Assembly: GCA_949398305.1 (NCBI GenBank)
Contig: CASLVD010000007.1
Span: 1-47,527, forward strand
DNA from: an uncultured Candidatus Melainabacteria bacterium
GTDB taxonomy: Bacteria; Cyanobacteriota; Vampirovibrionia; Gastranaerophilales; Gastranaerophilaceae
Direction of reading: 5' to 3'
Length of the DNA stretch: 47,527 nt
Shown here: one piece after another, positions 2,512-4,597 of the stretch
Numbering within the stretch: the first letter of the stretch is position 1
Layout: each line of letters starts with the position of its first letter
Translations under genes and position numbers: made by a program
The notes under the pieces: model-generated
What the model saw: only the letters and a program-made list of their open reading frames with translations
Databases searched by the model: none
Told to the model about the DNA's origin: nothing

Positions 2512-3285
2512 TTAGCGTTTTACTTTCATCCTCCAAACATCACTCGGGATTTCCCAGCCGTTATTTTTAACCCGTGTTAAACAAAAATATCCGGCATTAT
2601 TACCACTTGTAAGTTTGCTGCAATTTTTATTAACATCTTCATTTGTCATACTGTTTCCTGCAGGAACTACCCCGTCAGATGTAAAAACAGCAGCATAAAT
2701 ATCTTGCCCGATAATATTAGGCGGTCTATCTCCATTTCCATCAATGAATAATATAATAGAAGATGGATCAGATATCTTTACACCAAAATAATTATATATA
2801 CTACCTGCACTATATCCATCCACAATTAAGTTTGAACCATTTGTAAGTTTAATTATAATAATATCTGAACCGATACCAATTTGAGAACGATAAGTATAAG
2901 GTACTCCACCTGACAAAGTTCTTGTTAAACCTTTATCATTCCAGCAACCGGATTTATTATAACAAACCGTTGAATATTTCATATGCGGAGCTAAATATGT
3001 TTCAAACCATTTTTTAGAACTTTCCATATTATCAGGCAATTCCATTTCAAACGAAACATCATCATATTCCGTAAACTTCAATGTCTGCTGCAAAATTGAG
3101 TATGTTTCCTTAAGATTTGATTCAACAATATGTTTACTATAATTACTAATCAAATTTGGGATAGTCATCGCTGCAACTACACCAATGATACCAAGGGTTA
3201 TTAGAACTTCAGCTAATGTAAAACCTGCTTTTTTACCCCTCGTCCCTTTGGCCTCCGAGCCGGAGTCTGTTCGGCTTTTCAACAC
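2512..3285 (-). CDS. Pseudopilin-like protein, 5' end interrupted
   Basis: 257 residues from a GTG at 3285. KKAGFTLAEVLITLGIIGVV (about 19-38) is a type IV prepilin cleavage and methylation site (G|FTLAE, Glu at +5) followed by the hydrophobic assembly helix. The Cys-containing remainder resembles a minor pilin head. The GTG lacks a good Shine-Dalgarno. A strong AAGGAG plus ATG lies at 3407, but its frame closes after 15 codons because of a nine-G tract. With 7 or 10 Gs the frame would be open from 3407 through the pilin. The N-terminal residues before KKAG are encoded by a palindromic, repeat-like stretch. It is either a phase-variable gene, a frameshifted gene or a sequence error. Confidence 0.75.
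   Translation of the reverse strand: MLKSRTDSGSEAKGTRGKKAGFTLAEVLITLGIIGVVAAMTIPNLISNYSKHIVESNLKETYSILQQTLKFTEYDDVSFEMELPDNMESSKKWFETYLAPHMKYSTVCYNKSGCWNDKGLTRTLSGGVPYTYRSQIGIGSDIIIIKLTNGSNLIVDGYSAGSIYNYFGVKISDPSSIILFIDGNGDRPPNIIGQDIYAAVFTSDGVVPAGNSMTNEDVNKNCSKLTSGNNAGYFCLTRVKNNGWEIPSDVWRMKVKR
3253..3265. repeat. Short inverted repeat in the pilin leader
   Basis: CTCCG-AGC-CGGAG, a 5-bp inverted repeat. It is GC-rich compared with its surroundings and lies next to the larger palindrome at 3292-3312. Confidence 0.5.
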
Positions 3286-3291
3286 AGATAG

Positions 3292-3312
3292 ATTCCGGAT
3301 CGAATCCGGAAT
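3292..3312. repeat. REP-like palindrome inside reading frame
   Basis: ATTCCGGAT-CGA-ATCCGGAAT, a perfect 9-bp inverted repeat with a 3-nt loop. It lies in the open frame that leads into the pseudopilin. Sequences of this kind are known as dispersed palindromic repeats in other bacteria; copy number here is unknown. Confidence 0.6.
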
Positions 3313-3359
3313 GACAATACTTTTGAAAGGAGATAACTGAAACCCGCTTGAATTAAGCT

Positions 3360-3407
3360 TTAAGCAAGTACCCCCCCCCGATTTTCTAATTTTAATCTGT
3401 TTTTCAT
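3360..3407 (-). other. Start fragment of pseudopilin gene with G9 tract
   Basis: ATG at 3407 has AAGGAG 7 nt upstream, the best start signal for the pilin gene. The frame reads MKNRLKLENRGGVLA and stops. The nine-base homopolymer is at 3371-3379 (C on the plus strand). Confidence 0.6.
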
Positions 3408-3461
3408 ACTTAATCTCCTTTTCAATATTATTAATTATAACAATTTATAATCATTTTTGCA

Positions 3462-3499: not shown

Positions 3500-4597
3500 T
3501 TATTCAACGTATTCTTCTAAGCGTTTTTTACGATTCGGATGACGTAATTTTCTCAAAGCTTTTGCTTCAATTTGTCTGATACGTTCACGTGTAACACCGA
3601 ACAATTGACCAACTTCTTCCAGAGTTCTCTGGCGGCCGTCATCCATACCGAAACGTAATCTCAATACATCACGTTCACGAGGAGATAATGTACAAAGAAC
3701 TTCAGCTAAATCTTCTTTTAATAATTCAGAAGCAACCATTTTTACAGGAGCATCAGCTTCTTTATCTTCGATAAAATCACCTAAACGAGAATCTTCTTCT
3801 TTACCGATTGGAGTTTCAAGAGATAAAGGTTCTTGAGCAATTTTGATAATTTCGCGAAGTTTTGGAATAGAAACATTCATTTCTGCTGCCAATTCATCTT
3901 CGGTTGGTTTTCTTGACAAATCTTGAGCCAATTTTCTTGTAACTTTTTTAAGTTTATTGATTGTTTCTACCATGTGAACAGGAATTCTGATTGTTCTTGC
4001 CTGATCAGCAATAGCACGAGTAATTGCTTGTCTGATCCACCATGTTGCATAAGTTGAGAATTTGAAACCTCTTTCGTGGTCAAATTTTTCAGCCGCACGG
4101 ATTAAACCAAGGTTGCCTTCTTGAATTAAGTCTAAGAAAAGCATTCCGCGTCCTACATATTTTTTAGCAATACTTACAACTAAACGTAAGTTAGCTTGAA
4201 CAAGTTTTCTTTTTGCAATAGCGCCAGGTGTACCGCCTTCGAGAATTTTTCTTGCTAATTCGATTTCTTCATTAGCAGATAAAAGTTTAATTCTGCCGAT
4301 TTCGCGCAAGTATAATCTTACAGGGTCATCTATTGCTACATTTTTCGGAAGTTCTAAATCATTCGGGTCCGGTTCATCAGAACTATGCATCATGTAGATA
4401 TCTTCTGCGTTAACCTTATCACCCATTTTTGATGTAACAATATCTTCAATGTTGTCAGTTGAAATGTCAACATTCATATAATTAATCGCATCATGTTCAG
4501 AGTCTAAAACTGAATCCTCGTTAATATCTTGCAAATCAAGTGTATCTTCTTCCATAACACTGACTACAGAGGAGCTTGCTTGTCTTTTTTTTGTCAT
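3500..4597 (-). CDS. rpoD: Primary sigma factor (sigma-70/SigA)
   Basis: 365 residues. After an acidic N-terminal part (1-88), all sigma-70 regions are visible. Region 1.2 is at about 90-125. Region 2 is at 130-205, with [20 protein letters not shown] and [14 protein letters not shown] for core binding, -10 recognition and melting. Region 3 follows at about 210-285. Region 4 is at 295-360, with RLRFG and the helix-turn-helix [20 protein letters not shown] for the -35 element. It directs RNA polymerase to housekeeping promoters. Its ATG touches the dnaG stop codon (TAGATG), and its GGAG lies inside dnaG, so the two are coupled like the classic macromolecular-synthesis operon. Confidence 0.97.

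Follow-up and report, generated by a model that had tools for sequence, protein, structure and literature searches.

A pilin-like gene of an uncultured Candidatus Melainabacteria bacterium (assembly GCA_949398305.1, contig CASLVD010000007.1) is assembled out of frame with its best start codon, and the run of nine guanines lying between the two raises the question of whether the gene is switched by changes in tract length or has simply been misread. The window, meaning the whole stretch of 47,527 nucleotides that was analyzed, carries all elements of the locus on the minus strand. The leader ORF has the Shine-Dalgarno stretch AAAGGAGAT (3413..3421, with AAGGAG at 3415-3420), followed by ATTAAGT, the ATG (3405-3407), 25 nt ending in C, the G9 tract proposed as the switch (3371..3379, at a distance of 28 nt from the first ATG base), and TACTTGCTTAA. 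In the assembled G9 (OFF) state the leader ORF (3360..3407) comprises 15 codons, encodes the peptide MKNRLKLENRGGVLA and is closed by a TAA at 3360-3362; reading the minus strand thus confirmed the sequence-only reading, according to which the tract ends the frame 15 codons beyond this start. A conserved post-tract block (3326..3370) ends in ATCTCCTTT (3326-3334), the 9-nt complement of the Shine-Dalgarno stretch. It is separated by a linker (3226..3325) from the sequence for the pilin-like protein, which extends from the prepilin motif GFTLAEVLITL to the stop codon (2512..3225). The linker holds a dispersed palindromic repeat, CATTCCGGATTCGATCCGGAATCT (3290-3313), which the genome matches at 17 places when up to 2 mismatches are allowed.

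With 10 Gs the ORF from ATG 3407 runs for 298 codons through the pilin, while it ends after 15 codons with 9 Gs and after 18 with 11. The full protein is therefore read from one length class modulo 3 only and the other classes are truncated; 7 Gs fall into the same class as 10, as had been claimed earlier for both lengths. The linker joins the leader frame only at n = 1 mod 3. No ATG, GTG or TTG occurs in the pilin frame of the G9 sequence upstream of GTG 3285, and there is thus no obvious alternative start that could rescue the pilin. The G9 run is the only tract of eight or more Gs (G8+) in the window, and dinucleotide shuffles of the window matched the G8 pattern 0.08 times on average (2 of 100 shuffles reached 2). 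A simple-sequence tract within a reading frame and longer than expected by chance is one of the features that characterize SSR-mediated translational phase variation.

The encoded protein carries the prepilin N-terminal cleavage/methylation motif, with matches above cut-off to Pfam N_methyl (E 2.5e-6) and NCBIfam TIGR02532. An AlphaFold2 model (mean pLDDT 87) consists of a 51-residue N-terminal helix followed by a mixed alpha/beta domain, and the combination of prepilin motif and hydrophobic helix places the protein in the type IV pilin/pseudopilin superfamily. None of the specific NCBIfam pilin families reached its cut-off for the window pilin, and a Foldseek search against the PDB gave no significant match, the top hit being PAK pilin (E 0.69).

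The source genome (G000; 1,917,552 bases in 109 contigs, Gastranaerophilales-like) matches the window pilin at about 120 places. It contains 36 G8+ tracts, 28 of which lie in pilin leaders (counting two at contig ends that belong to this type of leader cassette), with lengths across these 28 genes from G8 to G12. The spacing from ATG to tract was 28 nt in all 24 complete leaders, and the leaders follow the rough consensus AAGGAGAGAAATT-ATGAAAAACCTAACAAAATTAGAAAAAC-Gn-TAACTGCTTAAAG-TTAATTTAGGCG..TTTCAG.TATCTCCT. Linkers between tract and pilin vary from 19 to 274 nt and often contain dispersed repeats. Four contigs start or end at a tract; the number expected to lie no more than 15 nt from an end is 0.06. 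The leaders of most remaining pilins are short and ordinary, for example MKKAFTLAEV. Tract-free pilins in which an in-frame insertion duplicates a portion of the prepilin motif (e.g. AFTLAEGATHVAMPPVFSKAGFTLAEVLITL) were seen at L094, L097, L098, L100, L117, L118, L120, L135 and L160, and these insertions resemble small palindromic coding repeats. At L132 (2-811) a G12 at the contig start precedes a protein with a prepilin motif and YadA head repeats. Tracts elsewhere in this genome (L095 near 1112-1121 and 3594-3602; L107 and L125, minus strand) are located at the tails of cytidylyltransferase and acyltransferase genes, between two neighbouring genes that resemble each other and match no Pfam family, and inside a LysM-domain gene; by analogy, these sites may be reminiscent of surface-glycan phase variation.

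Despite their variation in length, the linkers keep their frame: the distance from tract to motif is 145 nt in the window, which is 1 mod 3, and the same remainder was found for 20 of 22 loci of the source genome. In the relative G390 (BRZ_EH__bin71), the most tract-rich genome described here, leader and linker lengths compensate each other modulo 3 in 48 of 48 forward cases. Since these lengths are maintained modulo 3, the fused ORF appears to be under selection that holds leader and pilin in one frame, even where the assembly shows the two out of frame. The stop codons support the same notion. Among 173 non-redundant cassettes from 78 genomes, which are related by descent and hence not independent counts, the OFF frames stop at a median of 3 codons beyond the tract, compared with 11 when the downstream sequence is shuffled, and 79% of them stop within 6 codons (34% in shuffles). 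No stop interrupts the right frame over linkers that span 19-274 nt.

The layout is not confined to one genome. Within the genus, 19 of 46 genomes contain a GGAG-ATG-N-G8 pattern, for which the reversed control gave few matches; within the order, the arrangement G8-N20-50-prepilin motif was found in 87 of 383 genomes (15 of 52 genera), where the reversed pattern gave none. All but two of the 87 layout-bearing genomes belong to one family, that of the source genome; these genomes are drafts, mostly MAGs. Leader sequences vary between genera and the layout persists; leaders also differ within close pairs from separate genomes of the collection, which may belong to different species. The pilins of L286 and L328, from two genomes, are 98.7% identical over 894 nt, and the similarity stops at the G tract, beyond which the leaders differ as if exchanged there. 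In the relative G040 (L184, 1512-3026) the SD-ATG-G10 layout is in frame with a 504-aa hydrophobic protein without a Pfam match. In a scan of about 85,000 species the titles among the matches listed were mostly Gastranaerophilales, Melainabacteria or unnamed bins. A spread to other phyla was discarded after inspection of four clear outsiders among the matches listed (Fibrobacter, Porticoccaceae, Nitrospira and Geomonas), all of which lacked the leader; Muribaculaceae, Rokuibacteriota and unnamed-bin titles also stand among these matches. One cassette in a Muribaculaceae bin, from an automatic count, is perhaps a mis-binned contig, and the single pattern match in a viral collection lay in GC-rich DNA without the layout. 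Recurrence in the source genome, the genus and the order rules out an isolated assembly error: the simple alternative named in the sequence-only reading fails, as one base-calling slip cannot account for 28 tract-bearing pilin genes and 87 genomes, whereas the same recurrence, together with the frame conservation around the tracts, lends support to the phase variation that it had suggested. Loss of mismatch repair was considered and rejected: MutS homologues are present in all 46 genomes of the genus, so that there is no general repair loss.

Most loci are OFF as assembled. The 22 loci of the source genome comprise 16 G9, one G8, four G10 and one G11, and by the conserved ATG only 3 of them (L112, L119 and L127) are in the ON class. 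Across the 173 cassettes, all three classes are present, with 23 ON, 58 one base above and 92 one base below. Because the N20-50 pattern drops short tracts if the linker is below 20 nt, the counts were repeated without short linkers, giving 21 ON, 48 above and 87 below. In a second genome, G001, 3 of 43 pilin cassettes are ON, and in G390 3 of about 58, in both far below one third, a rarity that counts against free switching. Modal tract length differs by genome, being 9 in G000 and CATLLN, 10 in CALUVV (G390), CALUYO and CAG:439, and 11 in G001 and Scatousia, and in the larger cassette sets the mode lies one base off ON. The excess of OFF states suggests that selection favours the expression of few pilins or, alternatively, that there is an RNA-level route.

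Near-identical paralogues differ in tract length in one relative, G013, where tracts range from 6 to 13 and differ in 6 of the 10 pairs whose 50-nt flanks are identical; in one leader family of G001 they do not, all 21 tracts being G11. Such uniformity, like that of G390 contig C1 (396,650 bp), where 45 of 47 tracts are exactly G10, counts against DNA switching, for free switching at each locus predicts a spread, unless the consensus shows the population mode alone. Uniform lengths are compatible with switching, since a metagenome consensus reports the population mode and a narrow mode is normal in phase-variable Campylobacter, in which lengths of 9-10 dominate (PMC6321876). Interrupted tracts (G7-A-G3 and G8-A-G2) occur in typical leaders of G013 and G001 (L354 and L400) and are possibly locked versions.

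G390 contains 179 G8+ tracts. Of 87 analyzed, 53 lie before pilins in the G sense, 14 before opposite-facing pilins, in which the gene reads poly-C, and 20 elsewhere; a tract of n = 11 gives an open frame for the forward set and likewise for 10 of 10 reverse genes for which a leader was found. On contig C1 the G run is on the minus strand in 47 of 47 tracts, while long ORFs are distributed over both strands (147 minus, 137 plus). By analogy with GnT hotspots, cited for leading-strand growth of G runs (PMC12344412), this bias may reflect such growth. Unlike this orientation, the listed tracts of G001 occur on both strands of long contigs. A strand flip on G390 contig C3 (123-163 kb) was considered as a candidate origin or terminus of replication; the stretch is bounded by near-identical inverted pilin genes, so that an inversion or misjoin is also possible.

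Moreover, a sequence complementary to the Shine-Dalgarno stretch of the same cassette often occurs in the post-tract block, as for GGAGGTTAA with TTAACCTCC, TAAGGAGCT with AGCTCCTTA, and the window pair described above. With one cassette per genome, the longest complement to the own Shine-Dalgarno stretch averaged 5.69 nt compared with 5.22 nt for cassettes of other genomes, a value reached in none of 2000 permutations, and the pairing covaries across genomes. The predicted fold of the window cassette forms this SD/anti-SD helix (-21.6 kcal/mol, z -2.1), as do those of four further examples (z -0.7 to -1.8). We infer a regulatory role for the helix, which perhaps shuts the leader upon an early stop of translation.

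Taken together, the window gene is probably a member of a large phase-variable family of type IV pilin-like genes that is switched by slipped-strand mispairing and OFF by default. Every gene of the family would come with a Shine-Dalgarno site and a start codon of its own, followed by a short leader, a run of about 8-13 Gs and a linker that leads into the prepilin motif. In living populations, slippage during DNA replication would alter the tract, and one class modulo 3 (n = 7, 10 or 13 in the window) would fuse leader and pilin into a long-leader prepilin, to which expression would be confined and which would then be exported and assembled. The remaining two classes would run into stop codons, usually just past the tract. 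With OFF lengths at the majority of loci in the assembled consensus, only a small part of the pilin repertoire would be produced at any one time. A broader version, which we regard as possible rather than probable, envisages a genome-wide slippage code along the replication strand in Gastranaerophilaceae, in which the G tracts on one strand lengthen until they reach a species-specific size and are then kept there, pilins are framed one base off and OFF by default, a single-base slip (in DNA, less likely in RNA) turns them ON, and the SD/anti-SD helix tightens the OFF state.

The finding that several genomes have near-uniform lengths, most of them a single base away from ON, together with the presence of MutS, leaves slippage at the RNA level as an alternative: DNA length would be constant, and transcriptional slippage or frameshifting on the homopolymer would yield some full-length prepilin in every cell. 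We consider this unlikely, because lengths differ among the near-identical G013 paralogues and span 8-11 in the source genome, the required shift is opposite in sign between species and concerns poly-G and poly-C sense genes alike, and the strand bias in G390 would be left unexplained. It is less plausible still that the tract is part of a dispersed or mobile element inserted into the leaders of mostly dead genes. Such an element would fit the flanking motif TC-G10-CAAYTTTAARGCTT, which in G390 occurs in both gene orientations and outside pilins, the end of L286/L328 homology at the tract, and the tracts at tails of unrelated genes in G000; dead genes, however, would lose their frame over the linkers and would not confine stops to the wrong frames, and the leaders differ between genera without a common boundary. 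Finally, a true length that is ON everywhere, obscured by homopolymer base-calling or assembly error, is very improbable. Sequencing through G tracts is difficult and their lengths in databases may be in error (PMC9187656), the genomes are drafts, contigs end at tracts and one G001 tract contains an N gap, yet a like error would be needed at most loci in 78 genomes, with opposite sign between species; Zag_111, taken as G001, is Illumina data, and the tracts and stop placement stand at any exact length.

Switching by slipped-strand mispairing, the reading preferred here, has precedents. We found no literature linking Gastranaerophilales with phase variation in a search outside which most subscription journals lay, so that an earlier description is possible, and the paper describing Zag_111 makes no mention of pili. 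In Bifidobacterium breve, G-tract switching of pilus genes has been demonstrated by experiment; as here, the host is a gut commensal, the tract lies between a short start-bearing ORF and the pilin ORF, and a single length class joins the two (PMC9187656). That system comprises two sortase-pilus clusters of a Gram-positive organism, whereas the system proposed here comprises tens of prepilin-type genes in Cyanobacteriota relatives. Contingency loci of Campylobacter and Neisseria likewise have intragenic tracts of 8-12 Gs with a narrow mode and surface functions (PMC6321876, PMC5953494). Phase-variable genes number 5-81 in Campylobacter strains, and the mean count of poly-G tracts in Neisseria species is 15-19 (PMC6321876, PMC5953494), mostly in modifiers and outer membrane proteins, in contrast to up to 179 per genome in this gut Cyanobacteriota lineage, where most tracts examined (67 of 87 in G390) precede pilin structural genes. 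Neisseria pilE/pilS similarly offers many pilin copies of which few are thought to be expressed at once, but changes its pilin by recombination (PMC11868660), while every tract-bearing copy here has its own start site and tract. The dozens of similar tracts before pilin genes of this bacterium and many of its relatives suggest that a whole surface-fibre family may be toggled by DNA-copying slippage in these gut bacteria. If switching is confirmed, large phasomes are no pathogen trait, and a little-studied gut lineage varies its surface fibres cell by cell. The mechanism is thus of the kind known from B. breve and poly-G contingency loci, on an unusual scale; new details are the SD/anti-SD covariation, the near-uniform lengths seen in several genomes and usually a single base away from ON, and the strand fixity in G390, the last two of which bear on the origin of such loci.
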